64,000 nucleotides of DNA, taken from contig CM049313.1 of NCBI GenBank assembly GCA_026874595.1, positions 60,221,159 through 60,285,158 of the forward strand, written 5' to 3'. Below, piece by piece: positions 25,401 to 41,300 of this stretch (positions are counted from its first letter, which is position 1; each line of letters opens with the position of its first letter). The notes under the pieces are model-generated. The model was not told the origin of the DNA, did no database searches, and was given only the letters and a program-made list of their open reading frames with translations. The translations under genes and the position numbers were made by a program. The stretch comes from Sipunculus nudus. Taxonomy: Eukaryota; Annelida; Sipuncula; Golfingiida; Sipunculidae.

Positions 25401-28400
25401 TGATGTAATGATTAAATACTTTTTAAAATGATTCAGTTTTGACATGTATCTTCTTCCCTTAAGATGTTCTAAAATCCCATGAGAGCCCAAATTTTGGCCT
25501 GCGCATCATGGACTCAACAATTTTTCTTCCTAATGAAAACCATGGTTGCTTTATGTTGCTGAATTGTAAAGTTAAAAGAGAAAGTATGAAATGTTGCTTT
25601 TTTTATGCATCTTGAGATAATTAGAAGTAATTGGAAATGTGAACATCATTAAAACTGTCATCTGGGTAGTGGTACCAAAGTGACAGCTTGGAAAGGGTGA
25701 AAAATTGATAACTTAATGAGATCCATCTGTGTGAAAAGTTAACATGTTGAAAATTATCAGGAAGTACTTTACAATCATTTGCATCATATACAGTTTATGT
25801 CTTGCATAGATGTAAATGTAGGTCTATTTCCAGGACTTCTATTATATACATGTATATACATGAAGAACATGATGACCTCTCTGTGTGTATATTTATTTAT
25901 GGCTCTCTGGCATTCAGTTCACATAGCTTTGCAAATTGAAACTTCTACTAAATGCTTGTTGGTATGGAGGTCTGTAATTATTTAATTTTCATGATTAAAT
26001 TAATGTTAGTCTTACACGAAATTGATGGAGTGAATTTATTGATAAGTAATAAGCTGTCAGGGGGAGGATGAAGTTATGATGAGGTTATGATTCTTGACAG
26101 TTTATTTTCTTTTGCTTAATTATGACATAAAACTGTGAAGAATCACACAAAATAGATGGCCGATAGTACCATGCATGACAATATCAATGGACACTTGAAT
26201 TTCTTATTCTCATAGAGTGTGTCTGTTAGGCTGCCTTTCCACTGGCGCAGGGAATTCGCTACATAAAATGCACTGTTTCCAGGAATGCTATTTTTCTGTG
26301 GTGTAAAGGGGTTGCATTGGCATTGTGGTTTCAGTCTGAATCGCTCAAGTGTCATCCAATTAGCCTTAGCCTTGGTTAAGAAGCGGATCTCGGGGAGGGG
26401 GGGGGGTTCCAAACCCACCTTTTTTATTCGGCATAACCTTTCTTTTAGGGTTTCTGACCATATTTTGTGGTCTGGACCCCCCCTCCCTTTTCTGGACATG
26501 GTGACCTTTGTTTAGGTTTTTCTTTATTCCTCCTTGATTGAAGCCCCTCTTTTCCAAACCTGGAACCACCCCTGTGGGTGGGGTACATACCTTGTGTCGT
26601 AGGTTACGCATGATGCTATTTCAACGGAATACTAGGGGCCTGGACAGCTGAGCGGTAAAACGCTTGGCCTTCTCCGCTAGCGACCTGGTTTGATCCCCGG
26701 TGTGGCTATGAGAGTGGGTTGTAGTTGCCCATCCAAGGTAGGTGGTTTTCTCTGGGTTCTCTGGTTTCCTCCACCCTTACCGACTACCGAGCACCAACAT
26801 CCCAGCCATGGGTGGTGCCTCATATTAGTTATATAAACTAGTAGTACAATCCATGTAAAGTAAATAAAGTTTATATATTATATAAGTTCAACACTCTGAT
26901 GGAGATCCTTTTTCAGGCAAGGCAAACGCAACACTGTGCTGCAGAAAATTGCATTCATGGAAAGGCAGCCTCATATAAGAGCCCAAAAGACTGAAACAAA
27001 AAATGTTTGATAAGACTAGTGGCATTGGTACTACCAGACTATATACTCTTTACTTTCTAATATTGTTCAGGAGAAAGTGTGGAAAGTTGGTGATCGTTGC
27101 AAGGCCTGGTTTACGGAGGACGACCAGCTGTATCATGCGGTGATTACGTCCATAGATTCTGACACAGGCACTTGTAATGTGCGTTATACAGAATATGGCA
27201 ATGAAGAAACACAGGCTCTGGCTGACCTCCTGCCACCAAGTACAAAGTCTCAGCCAGCTGATTCCCACCCAGATAACCTACTGCCAGAGGTGAGTTGGAA
27301 AGAGAGATAGATAGAAAGACATATAATGGAATAAAGGCTTCAGAAAGACTTTTCTGTATCAGTGAATGTGCATTTTACAAGGTGTAACACGTGTATTGTA
27401 TATAAATAATATATCATGCACATTAGTTTCCTGTATTCAGGGCATTTTGTCATAAAGTTACAAAAATTTAAGACTTTTTCAGTAATTTTCAAAACAGAAT
27501 TAAGTTCAGCTCAACATTGGCATTACTGCAATAAATTAAATAATTTAACCCTTGTTTTGGCAGATTTAAATATCTGTAGGTTATAATAAACCTTTCAGTA
27601 GACCAGAGGCTTATGTTGACAAATGTATAAAATCAGGAAATTTTTGTTCTGAACTTGTTCCAGTAAGGTAAACAACGATCAGAATTGTGTTATCATTGCT
27701 AACAGTAGTTAATGTACAGGTGGCAGTGTATTAATTTTACTTCAGATGGATGGTGGCATGGACTGGTCCTCTCCTCACAGATCACCCGCTTCATCAAGCA
27801 GAGGTCAACCTCCTTACAGACACAGAAGTCGTCAAGCACCAAGTCACCCCACACATAGTCACCCAGGATGGGGCTGGCCACAAACCCCACCTCCTTTTAG
27901 TGTACCACAGTTCGCTCCACCAACTCCATTAATCCCTGTAAGTACTTTTATATAGTTATGAACTCCATCAAAAAGATAGGAAAAAGTGATTAATCTCAGC
28001 ACAGTGGACATTGGTTTACTTGTAGCTGTGAATACATGACTAAGTAGGCATTCATATGGGGCTGGTAAGCTCTACTTGAGTTGTGATAAGGAGGAATGTA
28101 CTGCAATGGTCTCCCATCCTGTTGCATTGATATCATGGTGAAAAGTCGATAATCTTATCATTAGACTATGATTGATGAATAACCAGACATGGGGTAATAG
28201 TAATAGATAATAGTAATAGGAAGTAATTCAATTACTTTTCATCAGTAATAGGCAATAATAGATAATAGGCAGTCCAAAAATGTAGAATAATAGTAATAGT
28301 ACTAGTAATAGGCAGATGAGTAATAGATCAATAGCTATTACTTTTAACTATTACCAGTCTGGGGGTAATAAAGAGTTAGTGGGTCTGAGTGCAAGTCAGC

Positions 28401-31400: not shown

Positions 31401-34400
31401 ATTATGCGGGCTTCAACATTGATGTCCATTTGAGTCATAGAAGAAGCGTTATGTCTCAATTGATATTAAATAAATCGTCAACTAAAAGGAAACAGAAACG
31501 TTTTTGAATATTTTTATTGCAAAACGGCATATCAAATTATGTTAATGCACACCGGACAATTTATTTCCTGTAAATTTTGTGCCGCATGCCGCAATGACTG
31601 AAAAAATCCAACAGAAAGAGACATCTGGGTCATGAGGTCAAATGTCTGGAAATATGCGGCACAGTTATAACGTTATGCGTAGGCAAACTATTTTACTAAA
31701 TAATAATTTCCCCGACTATTGCGCCTTATTTTCCGGATATCTTATTAATGACTCAAACTTCCCAAATTGTTGGGGGAGCTGGCATCATCATGCCATTGTC
31801 AACTTTCTGAAGTTTTGCCGCGATTGAGGTTTTGGACCGGGTATCTCCTCCAGTGCTCACAAAACCACCAGCGTTTTGTGGACCCTTAGAAGGGATTTCC
31901 AGTCGTAAGATACGTTTAGAGCTCGTGCTTTATATCATCTCGGCAAAACGACACCGAGGTGTAAACCACGGCCTTGCAAAGGCCAGGAGTTCATAATGTA
32001 TGAAATGTGATCGCAAACATCGCCCTTGTTAACGTACGAAGAAACGTAATGACTGGATTACCGTGGTATCTTAAGACGTTAATTAGCTAGGTGACGGGCA
32101 GTGACCTGCATGCATCACTGCACCCTCCTGCCGCACACAGGTGGGAGATGTGATCGTTCAATACGCCTCACCGATTACAGGGTTTTGGCCACCTTGATCG
32201 CTGTGTCGGCGTCTGATGTGATATTAACTGCGATCTGGTATCACTGCAAGGGTTCCAAGCATGACAATAAACGGGATTATGACAATATGCCATGACATTA
32301 AACTGTCAGATTTACCATTGTTTATATAGGAAATGGTTTGGGATTTCACATTTATGTGACAATAAACGGGATTTTCTATTAACCGATATGACACAAAGTG
32401 GGCTCGACTGTATATGAAATTCAGGTATTGATGGCGCCACCTGCATTGACCTTTTTTTGTACGGGGGTCATTGGTCATCTGTACATCAACCCATAATTTT
32501 CAGAAATAGCAGGAGCTACCATCCCCAGATTTTATGCAATAATCTGTCACATATCAAATGTTGTGGGATTCAGCTTATTTATTTGCTATCTGGTATCATG
32601 CCCCTCAGATCTGCATGTGGAGCCAATCTGTGAGCTTATACAATTGTGTGGCTACTATTTCAGATTTGGCAACAGGCCAAAGGTCAGTCTGGACCTATTT
32701 TTAGCTTTGGCAGACTGCCAACTGTATCTTATTAGGCAACAGGTCAAGAGTTCACTCAGTGCAGCCAGGTATAGGTCAGGAGTTCACTCACTGCAGTAGC
32801 TGCATTCTATTTATAGCGTTTGCAGACTGCCCACTGCATCAGATTTTACACCAAAGTTCAGCCTGGATCTATTTATAGCTTTGGCAGACTGCCAGCTGTG
32901 TCAGATTATGCAACAGGTCAAGAGTTCACTCAGTGCAGCCAGGTAGAGGTCAAAAGTTTACTCAGTCTAGCCAGGTGCAGGTCGTGAGTTCACTCAGTGC
33001 AGAAGCCTGAGCCAGCAAATTTGTCACAGTTCACTCGGGGCACAGCAGTTACAATGCTGCCCAAGCTGTATGTTTAATGGCCTGCTTACTACAGCACCCT
33101 GCTGGCTGGGGTATCGCTTACACCCCTGCCTCCAGAGGGTATGTTGCTAGGCAACAGGGATGTTCCAATATGGCGGACCCCTAGCAACAGACTATACCTT
33201 TCCCAAATAAATTCCTCATTAATCAGTTACTGTATCGTGTACTGCCTCCCAGATGACCCCTTATCCAGGCCTATATATCATCCTGTCATGGTAACATAAA
33301 CAATGCCACTGGGGTAAGTTTACCAGCCCCACAGTGGTCAGTCACTGTGTTGCCAGGGTACATGACAGGAATGGCAGTTGTGGGCGTCTGTAAGTTAAAA
33401 AATTTCAGTTGTTTGTATTTTTAACCAAAATCAAATGTATGATTCTGTTAGAAAAACGTGTGTTTTTTGTCATGCTGAAAACCAAAGTTTGATTTAATTT
33501 TTTGTTTGAATGTAAAACCTGGTCTTTTGAGACATGTAGAGTCATAATGGCTGTTGCTGCTGGGGCCCCCTGAGGTTGTGTATGGGGTTTGATGTTGAGG
33601 ATACACATGAAATATTGTCACTTTTTTGTACATTTATTCTTGTACTCAATTATACATTCTTAAATTCATAAAAATAATCCTGAGTATTATTCCTAAATGC
33701 ATAAGTATAACCCCAGATGCTAAGTGTTTCTGTGCATGGGCATATCAAATTATTCCATTCCCCCTTCAATTTAACATAAACACAGTGGGTCATAATGGAC
33801 AGATCTCTTGACTCCCATTTGGCATATTTATCCATGCTTTGTAGAGTATGTGGGAACAAATGCCAAACATACGTTCAAAAACTTAAATACAAGCCCATTA
33901 TGTGCAAGGATAATACTCAAAGAATATTTGATGTTTATGGCATTGACATATCACAAGATCAGAAGGATACACACCCAGAGCACCTTTGCAGAAAATGTTA
34001 CATTAAGATATTCAACCAGAAAAAAACCCTTGGAAATGCAGATGCTCGTAAATCTAAGAACCATGAAATGGCAGTGCTTTTCAATAGCAAGTGGTTACCT
34101 CACAAGAGAGGGGCTCCTCAAAATTGCTTTGCATGCAGCCAAGCTGCATCGCAAAAGAAAACTGGTCGACCGGTGAAAAGTAGGCGTGGGGCTCCAAAAC
34201 GGATTCCAGATGGACTTCTGTTCAATCATAGGGATTCGAATATTTTTGACTTCAGTGCAGAGAAGGCAGAAATAAAATTTAACAACATGAATATAGAGGG
34301 GATGAATGAAACACAAAAATCAATGTTCATATGTCCAATTTGCCAAGATATTTATTCCACACATGCTGTGTCTGGAACTTGTGGTCATTATTTCTGTGCA

Positions 34401-37207
34401 CACTGTATCAGTATGGAATTTTGCCAGGCCCTGTCAAATAATATTGAATGTCCTGTGTGTAGTGGCAATTTAGACTTCTTAAGCTGTAGAGTAGCAGATA
34501 AAAGGTTCCAGGATCAAATTCTTTCTTTGGAACTCACTTGTAATTTGTGCCAGGTGACTTCAGCTGCAACAGCTATGACGGAACATGCATGCAGACCTAA
34601 AGTTAACACAGCAAATACGGTAATAGAAACAGAAACAGTACAACTAGAGATTGAGGGAGAGCAGGCATCCTGTTCCCCTGGTAAATCTCAGAGTGTCCCA
34701 GATCCTGTCACACCTGTTCATGAACCTGATGCCACAGTACCTTCACAACTTGCGCGGTCTATTCCGATGATGACAACCGCAATTCAAACATCCCCCAGTA
34801 TAATGCCAATGACGCTGGATGAGAGCATGGAAAGGACCATACAAGAGCCACCCTTACCAGCTGAACGGCATTTGTTCACTAACTTGGCAAAGAGGATGCT
34901 GAGATTTTCTAAAGAAAAGGGATCGATCAGGTGCAAAAATAAACGAGGACAGGTAAGATTTAATTTTAATATGAGCATCAGAAATTCCATTTTTTTTAAA
35001 GTATTTCCATAAATATCATTAAGGCTAATTTCATTATCAAATAATTGCTTGTGTAAACTTTTTCCAGCCAATATTGCTTCAGAGAACAGTTGTACCAAGG
35101 AAATCCTCAGAGAAAGCCCCAAGTTATTTGGTCAGAAGACGTGCTGCAAGAATCGGAAAACTTAGGGCAGTGTTAGCAGGCAAACAGGAAAAAGCATTGA
35201 AAATACAGCATGCTAGTGAATTGAAAAAACTGAGTAAAGAAACAAGAAGAGACGTTTGCAGCAAAGCCGGGGTTGCCAGTGGTGGTCGTCTCAACAGATA
35301 TACTAGCCTGGCAATGAAAGCTAGCCTTGGACTTACTTGGGGCCAGATGAGAAAACATAAGCGGTATGTTCAGTTCAGATTAGATCTGAAAAATTTCATT
35401 TTCACATTCAAATAAGTGTCAAGTGCTCAAATTAATTAATAATTTGAAATAAGTAATTGTTTCCTTTTTCAGATTTATGAGGAGAGCTGGCATGGAGATC
35501 GAAAATGAACATAAAGAACGGGCTGCCAGGAAGGAGATTGTATCAGAAAAGCTTGTTGGTAGAACTGCAAGGTTTCTTGAGAAAGATGAGAAACATCCTG
35601 ACAGAGATAAGAGTGGGTTTGTGGAAGTGGAGGTGCCCTTTGTGTACGTCAATGACATAGCTGGCTTTGTCAATGATTTGTTGGACAGATATCAGAGGTA
35701 ATTAGTTTACTTTAGAAAATATATATATACACTATCGATTAAAAATTTATTCACTATCGATATTATTTTCATGCCTGTCTAATAGTATCCAGTAAAATTT
35801 AAATGTTTTATTCTGTAAAATGTATGTGTACTCAATTTCAAGGAGTAAGCTGTTGTTATGGAGAGATGGGATGATGGCCGAGCAAGCAGATGATGAAATT
35901 TGGATTAAAATTGGTGGAGATCATGGAGGAGGCAACATGAAGTACACATTACAAGTGCTCAACCTGAAAGAACCCAATGCAAAGCAGCACACATTTGTGA
36001 TTGGTTGCTTTGAAGCTAAGGATCTCCATGAAAATCTTCGGCGTTCTCTGGAGGTTATGAAACCTTGCATTACCAAGCTGGCACAGATGTCATGGAAGTA
36101 AGTTATCAAAAATACAAACAAAATATACAAAGAATGTTTAACACCCCAGAATAACACAAAATATATGAAAGCAAAATATTTAATTTTATAGATAACTATT
36201 TTCGTCAAAATTGCACCGTTTAAAGCTATTTAAAAAAGTATCAAACGATATCCTTATTACAGTGTAAGGTTTATTTTTTGCAGTGGCAAAAGAATTCGTC
36301 TGTTCCTCAATGGGGATTATGACTTCCTGTGTAAAGTGTATGGTCTCTCTGGACCAAACGGTAAGTATTTCTATTTCTCTAACCTTTCTGTATAAAGAAA
36401 AATAAAATATATTGTGTTTTGTTAATTATGTCACTTGATCAGTGATTGTAAGGCATATTTTTTTTCTCCAGGCTCTTATCCATGCCTTTGGTGTGATGTT
36501 CCCAAGAAAGCCATGCAGATAAGGCGCCGGGAAAGAATTTCCCAACAACGCAAGCTGTCACTCATTAAAAAACAATATTCTGAATACGTAATACTTGGCA
36601 AAGCAAAGAAGGTGAACGCATCAGCATTCTACAATGTCATTCATAAACCTCTGCTGGACATCTTTATCAACCATGTAAGTATATAAAGTTATCCTGGAAT
36701 TTTATCACTCAAGGTAAATTTGCCCATTCCCAAATCTTTTTTCTCATAATTTTAAACATATTTATCTTGATAGCTGCATGTTTTAAATCACTTTTATACA
36801 TTTTTTTCAGGTAGCTCCACCATATTTTCACATTCTTCTTGGCATTGTGAAAAAACATCATGACCTGTTTATCAAAGATTGCCATGACACAGACATGGAA
36901 ATTGCAAAACACCTTTTGCAAAATAAGTGTCCATCCAGCAATCCAGTCATGATACGATACAGAGATATGGTCAAATTGGCACAAGAAGTAATGAGCATAG
37001 AGGAAAGAATCAGAGCTCTTCAACAACAGATTAGTGTTGTTGATGACAATGAGGACATTTCATTAGCAGATATGGAATCTCAAAGAAGAGCTTTGGAAAA
37101 GGAATTGCGTGATATGGTAAGAATTTATACATGCATTTTTTCAAATTTGAAAGTAAATTAAAAAAAAAAAAAATACAAGACACCATTTCTGTATTTAATT
37201 TTATATA

Positions 37208-37280
<73 letters not shown>

Positions 37281-38349
37281 TATATTATATTTATTTCATA
37301 TAAAGGAAAGAAAACAGAAGACCCTTCAGAATCCACCAACATCGGAAATGAGAGTAGGACCAGTGACAAGAACATTAGATCAGACCTTAGAAACCAGTGG
37401 CATCGTTGTGCAAGCTTACCACAGCCACAGCTTTGTCGGAAACCACTGTCACAAATACCTACAGGTATGTATGCAATTTCTGTATCTATATCAATATCAA
37501 ACATTATAATTTTATTGGTTTAAAATAATTAAAAAGACAGCAGCATTGGTCTAAAAAAATATGTCCATATTGTTTCAGGAACCAGTCTACAATAACCTAT
37601 GCGACAAGATGGTCACAGTGAAGGTGTACACAGACAATGCCTTGATTGTGAACAAAGCCTTTGTGACTGCACAAACTTATAAAATGCTGAATAAGCGGTT
37701 TGCTGCAGTTCACAGAATGGTTTCCCGGGATAGGGCCATATCTGCTGAGGAGTGTGATATAATAGGTAAGATTTTAATCTTTGATTATTCATATATAACA
37801 TATATGATTTACCCATTCATTATAAAGAATACGCATAAAATACATGCATTAAAATATGTGTATATAAATTCGTCTTTCCAGAGCAGAAGATAGATTCATA
37901 CCTCAGCTATTACCGGCGCCATCTAAGTCAGCCTCTCACACCGAAACACCATTTTTTGGAGGATCATGTTGTATCTTGGATTCGGAAGTGGGGCTATGGG
38001 ATGGGTCTTCATGGAGAACAGGGAGGGGAAGGGATCCATGCCGTCATCAATAAAATTAAAAGGGCAACATGGGCAATTAAAAATCCAGTTTCAAGACTGC
38101 TTTCGACCATAAAGGAGCAGCATACACAGTGTGCTCCAGAGATTCAAGCTGAAATTCCAGCAATCAAAAAGAGAAAATCTAAAAGCACCTCTGATTAATC
38201 ACAGGTTAAGGAAAGAAATTATAGCCTTTAGGCCTTACCCAAAGAGAAACAATATTTATAGAAAATAGTTGGTACGAGTATATGATGTTACTTGTGTACA
38301 GAATGACAAAATATTTTATGGAGGCCAGGTTTCATTTTTATTTACTGTA

Positions 38350-38390
<41 letters not shown>

Positions 38391-41300
38391 TACATTACTG
38401 ATGACATGTATATATGACCATAAATGGATCATTTTTCATCACTTAAAACAATATTATTTTGTAATATTTTTTGTATTTTTTCAGTCATTATTCGCATTTA
38501 TCCACTTCAACATATTTACAAGTATCATAAGTGTTTCATATAACACATATGTTCTCATATAAATGTTAAATATACTTCTTTGTTCAAATGATTGACATCC
38601 AATGGGTTTCAGGCATGAAATTCCTTATTATTTGTATGTGACTGACAGCAAATATACCTCAATTTCTGATAACTCTGTCTCTTTAGAAAAAAATTAAATC
38701 AACATATTGAAAGCACACATCTTTTGTGAAATATAGTGTAATTGTTCTCTGAAAATTTGGTTGTTATAAAAATACAAGTGCTTGTGTAGTCACTTAGACT
38801 GTATCTTTAATTTCATGGAATGATTTGTTTTTACAGTGACAACAAGAATGGTGTAGTAGTTTGTGTTGTTAACTCATTCTGTAGTGTTGCTCCTCAGATG
38901 AATAAAAATATAACTTGTATGTTCAAATTCCTGAGAAAATTACCTTTCAGTGCATATATATATTGTCTTGGGTGTATTTTTAATAAAAAATATATGATGG
39001 AAAACATACAGGAGATCTTGTTATAAACACAGGTTTATCAGAGCCCCGGTCACACTGAGTGTGTAACATGATACTGATGCTGCTACACTGGTGGCCAGGG
39101 GCTGTGTGTATACACAGTAGCTCAGCCTATGTTCCCATTAAACATACACCAGCGTAACTGCTGTGGGGGCAACTGCTTTTCTCACCTAAGCCTGGTCAGC
39201 CCCATGCATAAGACTCAAGGTAAGTTTGATGTATTGGCCTGGTATTTTGACCTGTCTATGTGTCTTTGATGGCTTTCTTGTTCACAAGACAGGTGTCGCC
39301 ACCTACAATGACGTTTGCACAGTGTATGTGCCTGCTTGTTTCTATAGACGAATTTGATATATCAGCCTGAAATTAGGCATATTTATGCAAATTGAAAAGC
39401 TTTTTCGTATACAAGACTGGTGGTGCCATCTACAATAATTTTTGCACAGTGTGTGTCCCTGCTTGTTTCTCAGGAGGGGTTTGATATATCAGTCTGAAAT
39501 TGGGCATATGTATATATCTCTGATAGCTTTGTTGTATACAAGACTGGTGGTGCCAGCTACAGTCATTTTTCGAGTTGTGTGAACCCATGCCAGAATTTCC
39601 GCAGTGATGTTTGTGTAATTGTTTCTTATTCAAAATGTTTAGTACTTTTCATATATATGAGAAGTAATGGTCCAGCATTGAAACATTATACCTGGTGTAT
39701 TTCCCAATGCACAGGTTTGCATTAGGCCTGTAGGCCTTGTTAACATTTAATATGAATTTGAAATTCTTAATCTATTTGAATTTGAAATTCTTAATTTATA
39801 AAATTTATAAATTCTTAATCTATAAAATTTATTCATTGTGTTCAGAAGTTGTTTCCTCAGTATATGAACATATTACTTTTCTTTGAAGTTTTCTCATAAC
39901 TGATATGCCACTGTTATTATCTTTTGAGTGTGCTTTGTTGTAACAGGTAATTTCAGAAAACTTTTTTTGTTTTCAGCCCATGTTTCCCCCAGTGATGAGA
40001 CCCCCATTTCCCGGATGGCCAACAGATCCAACTCAGTCCCTACCACAGGTAATGTAACTTTTATAAGAAGACCAGTGTTTAGACTGGCCTCATTTTGTCA
40101 GTTCATGGATTAAAGTGTTAACCCATATCATAGTGGGCCATTTTATCTGTGGCAAAATGATACGTATTGACAACTGCAGTGAAAATCTTGAAAAGGAAAT
40201 TTCATCCTTGTGCTGGACCAGCTACACAAATAGCATTTCTTCAGATAAACCAAACCAGCTGTCTTTTTTTACGTATTTTTCTTATGAAACCTACCATGTG
40301 TGAAAAAAGATTTGGGGACAGTTCAATGTTATAGCTTTTGTGGCTCCCTGGGGAGCATACACCCTAACACATGCAATCATAGATGTATTAGGGTTATCAA
40401 TTCAACATTTTCCTACCACCCATGCATGACCTGTACCCAGTCGCTCCTGGTTGGAAAGGGCTCACCCTTTATGTGAAGGCTTTGGCCAAGAGTCTTTGTG
40501 AGGAATAACAGTCTTAATGAGATTTAAACCCAAACCTTTGCAGCACCCTAACAATTGCACCTGTATGCTCCATAAAACTCAGTAAAGCTTTATAACAAGC
40601 TTTATTTCTATCTCAGAAATTCATAGGAAACTTGTGGTTACCATAGATATTGGATTAACATATTGATTTACTGTTTTGCACATTTTCCTTCTTTTTCTAA
40701 TTCCTCATCGAAAGCTGAATATATTGAGTTTACAGATTGTGCACAGTACTTTTATACTAGCATGAATGGCCAGTTGGAAATAACATTGTTGTTTTCAGCA
40801 TGACTGCTATCACCACAAAAAGTAGGCCTTAGCAGTGCAATAGATTTATGCCAACTGATCCTCTCTATTTTGACACAGTTCCCTTTTTCAAGAGGTAATG
40901 TTTCTATCCGCATTTATATTTCATGGTGTTAGCAGAATCATTCAAAAGAAATGTGTTTGGATAAATTGTATATACTAGTATATCATATGGGTAGTTTTTA
41001 GCATTTTCATCTGTTCAGCATATACTCACTGTGTTATCATACTTATGCAGGTTATACCTGATATTGCTCCACCACCTCCTCTAGTGGATGAAAATGAGGC
41101 TGTCACAGATGACAAAGAGGCTCTACACAGCATGCTGATATCCTGGTACATGAGTGGCTATCACACGGGCTACTATCAGGTGAGACTACGGTATAGTGAC
41201 TAAATATAGTACCAACTTCTATGCTGGTCAGTAACCTGCACAGGGATATGACTAAGTAGCAGCATCCAGATAGTCAAATGTTCATCTCCTTTCTCATTGG

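Follow-up and report, generated by a model that had tools for sequence, protein, structure and literature searches.

The stretch of DNA analysed here (the window) comprises 64,000 nucleotides of the Sipunculus nudus genome (assembly GCA_026874595.1, contig CM049313.1, positions 60,221,159 to 60,285,158 of the forward strand). It contains part of the host gene SMN, and an element lies in an SMN intron, between the Tudor exon and the YG-box exon and on the same strand as SMN (Table 1). The element starts with CACAGCAGTTAC at 33041 and ends with the reverse complement at 39165, termini of the CAC/GTG type, and GGGG stands on either side. Ten predicted exons with GT/AG borders, when joined in silico, encode 1060 residues without an internal stop.

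In these respects, the locus agrees with a preliminary description made from the sequence alone, which had reported the termini and flanking GGGG, a gene of ten exons whose phases all join, and an insertion inside an SMN1 intron. That description read the element as a RAG1-like transposon lacking RAG2. The present analysis instead points, with a probability of roughly 0.93, to an autonomous cut-and-paste transposon of the Chapaev group, with published Chapaevs being compared by description and Pfam family.

Table 1. Features of the Chapaev-like element and its SMN surroundings (positions in the window; TIR, terminal inverted repeat)
Feature	Position	Strand	Basis or remark
Complete Chapaev transposon (assignment from sequence), 6125 bp	33041..39165	+	six genome copies, five with both ends intact
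Target-site duplication GGGG, left	33037..33040	.	4 bp in 5/5 both-ended copies
Target-site duplication GGGG, right	39166..39169	.	4 bp in 5/5 both-ended copies
5' TIR CACAGCAGTTAC, 12 bp	33041..33052	+	
3' TIR CACAGCAGTTAC, 12 bp	39154..39165	-	
Inner end block TGTATGTTTAATGG, 14 bp inside 5' TIR	33067..33080	+	14-mer at both ends
Inner end block TGTATGTTTAATGG, 5 bp inside 3' TIR	39135..39148	-	14-mer at both ends
Predicted exon 1: Chapa zinc domain and RING, 386 residues	33795..34952	+	
Chapa / RAG1 importin-binding-like domain, residues 4-136	33804..34202	+	PF12560 sub-cut-off; hhalign to RAG1L N-terminus
RING finger, residues 180-222	34332..34460	+	PF13445 E 2.3e-6, 27.9 bits, cut-off 25.2
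Predicted exon 2	35068..35363	+	splice model and relatives alignment
Predicted exon 3	35473..35697	+	splice model and relatives alignment
Predicted exon 4; first catalytic D candidate, D586 (35919-35921)	35843..36097	+	
Predicted exon 5; second catalytic D candidate, D656 (36315-36317)	36284..36360	+	
Predicted exon 6; C(2)C motif CLWC, residues 675-678	36472..36674	+	
Predicted exon 7	36811..37116	+	splice model and relatives alignment
Predicted exon 8	37306..37464	+	splice model and relatives alignment
Predicted exon 9	37579..37765	+	splice model and relatives alignment
Predicted exon 10; H(4)H (H979, H984), E candidate E1001 (38016-38018), stop codon	37882..38198	+	
Host SMN Tudor exon, upstream of element	27074..27244	+	PF06003, Pfam E 5.7e-18
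Host SMN YG-box exon, downstream of element, approximate limits	41060..41175	+	motif by regular expression

Catalytic core and N-terminus

Against Pfam, the core of the predicted transposase matches DUF1280 at 1e-17 (64.9 bits, cut-off 25). This family is treated in PMC3985635, a paper that we take to be Majorek et al. 2014. DUF1280 is there identified with Chapaev transposases and placed in one clade with RAG1 (PMC3985635). The hallmarks given for Chapaev in PMC4079192 are a 3-4 bp duplication, CAC/GTG ends, DDE, C(2)C and H(4)H, and the window element has a 4-bp duplication, CAC/GTG ends, DDE candidates, C2C and H4H. RAGL transposons are characterised in PMC7204232 by a 5-bp duplication, RAG2L and a RAG1 core, whereas the duplication here is 4 bp and neither the RAG1 core model PF12940 nor a convergent RAG2L is matched. 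Scanning its three minus-strand frames with an E limit of 0.1 gave no kelch or PHD match, in line with the earlier statement that RAG2 is lacking.

Candidates for the DDE-core residues of the preliminary description are, by alignment and direct reading, D586, D656 and E1001, and a C2C motif (CLWC, 675-678) and an H4H motif (H979-H984) are also present. At a possible counterpart of the LH motif of Chapaev, relatives carry PYLHILLG or PYLHILLE and the window protein PYFHILLG.

The alternative that survives best, although highly unlikely, is a RAG1-like transposon of the RAGL/Transib clade that has lost its RAG2L. Consistent with this, the motif order D-D-C2C-H4H-E is collinear with RAG1, and the N-terminus is related to that of RAG1L and RAG1. 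D656 lies 19 residues ahead of the first C of the C2C motif, presumably the same distance as between D708 and C727 of RAG1. When aligned by hhalign, the core and the RAG core are weakly similar near the C2C motif, across 42-49 columns with E 0.011-0.033 (best 0.011, 49 columns), and none of 200 column shuffles matched the score of 30.3 (shuffle maximum 29.3). However, the window protein has no PF12940 match at E up to 1, compared with 230-268 bits for the three RAG1L frames of this genome that were scanned, and none of the at least 34 genome stretches matching this model (some being pieces of one locus) lies at the window. Built from 10 rows (the window plus pieces taken from seven loci), a core profile retrieves neither a RAG1 nor a Transib chain from PDB within an E limit of 10, and 6pqn, which we take to be a Transib transposase, is absent from its seven matches. 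In contrast, a control profile built on three RAG1-like proteins that this genome encodes finds 6b40 (RAG1L, presumably of amphioxus) at 5e-207, RAG1 at 7e-113 and also 6pqn at 4e-5 over about 90 positions. On the missing PF12940 match and the missing RAG1 or Transib chain, a RAG1 core is rejected, and both the duplication length (4 bp, not 5) and the DUF1280 assignment speak against the RAGL origin. The profile search that the preliminary description had proposed does not support its RAG1-like assignment, placing the core in DUF1280 and not in PF12940; of its "RAG1-collinear core", the motif order stands, with weak similarity, and the RAG1 core does not. Taken together, the DUF1280 match, the weak RAG core similarity and the equal D-to-C2C distance suggest a core that belongs to Chapaev and is distantly akin to RAG1.

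The N-terminus gives a clearer signal. Window exon 1 and five related sequences were combined into a six-sequence profile, which aligns with RAG1-like proteins over their N-terminus at a probability of 95.9 (hhalign, E 5e-9, 201 columns) and with residues 158-374 of the RAG1 chain 6oem at E 1.6e-6. The relationship to the RAG1 N-terminus is real, with Chapa assigned via its similarity to RAG1 and RAG1L, and the claim of a RAG1-type N-terminus with a RING holds. The supposed novelty of uniting such an N-terminus with the core does not, as Kapitonov and Koonin 2015 (PMC4411706) report Chapa and RING from two Chapaev subgroups and argue that the ancestor shared by Chapaev, Transib and RAG1 already had both. 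The combination of Chapa, RING and a Chapaev core is already in print, and the window element is a well-preserved new member. The preliminary description expected it to bear on the order in which RAG parts were assembled; for RAG1 it does not settle that order, because the reconstruction of 2015 had drawn on this architecture before (PMC4411706).

Copies, age and transposase gene

Copies were sought across the genome (G000, 1.43 Gb), and their counts are lower bounds. The first 360 bases of the element match at least 11 places, six at 99-100% and five diverged. The last 176 bases, also used to look for non-autonomous copies, retrieve the same six loci and one diverged match. The search for further copies with the same termini that the preliminary description had suggested thus uncovered six near-identical loci. 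Five copies have both ends, each with a different exact 4-bp duplication (GGGG, ACCT, TTTA, TGCT and AGAT), and a fifth matching base is absent from all five. With two copies of a relative included (ACCT and TCGG), the duplication is 4 bp in all seven copies readable on both sides. The sixth copy, on C17, is internally deleted, and the final bases of its 3' end are missing. Outside two simple repeats, pairwise substitutions among the six amount to 0.305-0.535%, and the frame is open throughout in four. Such dispersed, near-identical copies with their own duplications indicate a recent burst of transposition, and the SMN intron insertion would be one of the recent landings. The element is apparently young, intact and very recently mobile, as had been proposed, and it may still be mobile.

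The gene model is supported by intronless relatives. One of these, L032, has a single frame of 676 residues with 43% identity, and its alignment with the window protein has no gap at any of the nine exon junctions; the nearest, eight residues past the third junction, is the only gap within twelve residues of any junction. Another relative, L036, covers five of the nine. A more closely related element, with a copy on C13, keeps the residue in 641 of 1035 aligned codons (62%), and the ratio of nonsynonymous to synonymous change (pN/pS) is 0.30, with synonymous sites saturated. This comparison further supports the exon model and shows purifying selection on the predicted transposase gene. L032, L035, L036, L043 and relatives are Chapaev copies that lack introns and share about 43% identity with the window core. 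Families that seem to share the window introns (L026) occur beside intronless ones, which may reflect intron gain or loss within one element family.

Several observations weigh against an intact Chapaev with a RAG1-type N-terminus. Residues 4-136 reach only 18.6 bits with the RAG1 importin-binding model PF12560, under its cut-off of 23.3. Ordinary RING proteins outscore RAG1 as matches to the N-terminal profile (RNF4 1.2e-9 and TRAF6 1.5e-7 versus 1.6e-6), so the RING alone is not diagnostic. Two of the six copies are broken, one by a stop and one by the deletion with loss of its 3' end. These last defects, along with exon junctions predicted from DNA, would also fit an inactive fossil with an artefactual exon model, yet the nine GT/AG junctions are consistent with the intronless relative and the copies are 0.3-0.5% diverged, leaving this explanation very improbable. 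Least probable of all is a host-domesticated RAG1/Chapaev-like gene, for which the long intact ten-exon gene and the pN/pS of 0.30 could be cited, since the six near-identical copies are dispersed and five of them keep intact ends and a duplication of their own, which argues against it, and the selection signal is compatible with selection at the level of the element.

For an autonomous Chapaev transposon, the mRNA would be translated into a transposase of 1060 residues, in which the N-terminal zinc domains, Chapa and RING, may serve in dimerisation or ubiquitin ligation. At each end, the RNase H-like DDE core (candidates D586, D656, E1001) would bind the inner block as well as the terminal repeat of 12 bp, excise the element and insert it into a target site that it cuts with a stagger of 4 bases. 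Common ancestry with RAG1 would be distant, clear in the N-terminus and faint in the core.

Chapaev and RAGL elements in the same genome

DUF1280 matches at least 32 genome stretches and the N-terminal exon at least 100 (including the window family and split pieces), indicating that Chapaev is a diverse resident family. RAG1L loci are also present. For example, a 997-residue frame (L009:1390-4383, minus strand) has a RAG1 importin-binding domain at 32.5 bits (over cut-off), a sub-cut-off RING and a RAG1 core, and a 958-residue frame (L013:1396-4272, minus strand) has the same domain at 35.4 bits (over cut-off), an over-cut-off RING and a RAG1 core. No kelch match was found in three frames of the 1.4-kb 3' flank of either; in the DNA beyond L009 (L047, 6 kb), open reading frames of at least 110 residues were covered.

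A further element (C11:72621066-72627930; L050, L012, L048) has CACGTT ends, a RAG1 core and a sub-cut-off RING, with a convergent RAG2L on the opposite strand whose kelch matches are over their cut-offs and whose PHD is just under (23.2 versus 24). Its flanks on C11 agree over four bases only (CCCC), and a copy on C17 (L051, L010, L049), about 95-97% alike, has the 5-bp duplication TATAC. The idea that this element has RAG1L without RAG2L, which arose from open-reading-frame cut-offs of 90-110 residues and an empty search for RAG2 (PF03089) without a control signal, was dropped when a frame-by-frame scan revealed the convergent kelch and PHD gene. This element, L009 and L013 look like ordinary RAGL transposons. 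A 425-residue open frame within L048 (3169-4446, plus strand) resembles an IS1595/ISXO2-type transposase by eye.

A well-preserved Chapaev with a complete RAG1-type N-terminus shares its genome with a RAG1L-RAG2L transposon. Such a pair is suited to testing the roles of Chapa and RING, and whether RAG2 is needed for unequal spacers.

Bipartite ends and known systems

Each end of the element is bipartite, with the inner block at unequal distances from the outer repeat. A shared stretch of at least 12 between the two ends arose in 2 of 20000 base shuffles. Genome-wide, the two blocks 3-20 bp apart gave 12 matches, seven with spacing 14, five with spacing 5 and none with another, and a reversed-pattern control gave none; as 11 of the 12 belong to the window family, they are not independent. 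The 62%-identical relative (copies on C13 and C9; duplications ACCT and TCGG) also has spacings of 14 and 5. In a third family, whose exon 1 has about 50% identity, the 5' end near the C3 copy has 14 and the 3' end near the C15 copy has 5, although we infer their membership, as these ends lie about 190 and 670 bp beyond the part common to both copies. Elsewhere, a 3' end (L053) has spacing 5 and a 5' end (L025) spacing 14; 10 of 13 inner-block bases are kept at the 3' ends of L052 and L053, and L022 and L023, two diverged 5' ends, have a changed inner block that makes their spacing unreadable. Besides the window (33041-33080 and 39135-39165), loci with bipartite ends are L025, L026, L052, L053, L054, L057, L058 and L059.

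The spacers are therefore 14 and 5 in the window family and its relative, and probably in the third family. A broader rule, by which Chapaevs whose N-terminus is of the RAG1 type would combine an outer repeat of 12 bp with an inner TTAATG-type block at fixed unequal distances (14 and 5), is doubtful, and the third-family check slightly lowered its standing. Were it true, and were the transposase to require two unlike ends, the design would be a RAG2-free counterpart of the 12/23 spacer rule, and spacer asymmetry would predate RAG2 and be shared across the RAG1/Chapaev stock. Titles and abstract openings on Chapaev, RING, RAG1, molluscs, DUF1280 and asymmetric ends contain no mention of Chapaev end spacing, which is weak evidence, and the 14/5 design may be new.

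Chapaev transposons were reportedly described by Kapitonov and Jurka in 2007, and N-RAG-TP of Aplysia is said to have been described by Panchin and Moroz in 2008. Transib carries C2C and H4H, and unequal inner sites also occur in unrelated transposons. Published Chapaevs with Chapa and RING share with the window element both of these domains, a DUF1280-type core, CAC/GTG ends and a 4-bp duplication (PMC4411706). N-RAG-TP, made up wholly of RAG1 N-terminal-like sequence (PMC8355894), resembles it in having a RAG1 N-terminus-like part within a transposon, a comparison made by description only. Transib has a distantly related DDE core (PMC4411706), but differs in its 5-bp duplication and in being without a RAG1-type N-terminus (PMC7204232, PMC8355894). 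Protostome RAGL transposons share with the window element a RAG1-type N-terminus with zinc motifs and CAC-starting ends, but are set apart by their RAG1 core, convergent RAG2L and 5-bp duplications (Martin et al. 2020, PMC7204232). Unequal spacers are known from recombination signal sequences (12/23), some Transibs and ProtoRAG (27/31; PMC8355894), and the 14/5 ends of the window Chapaev share this inequality with recombination signals.

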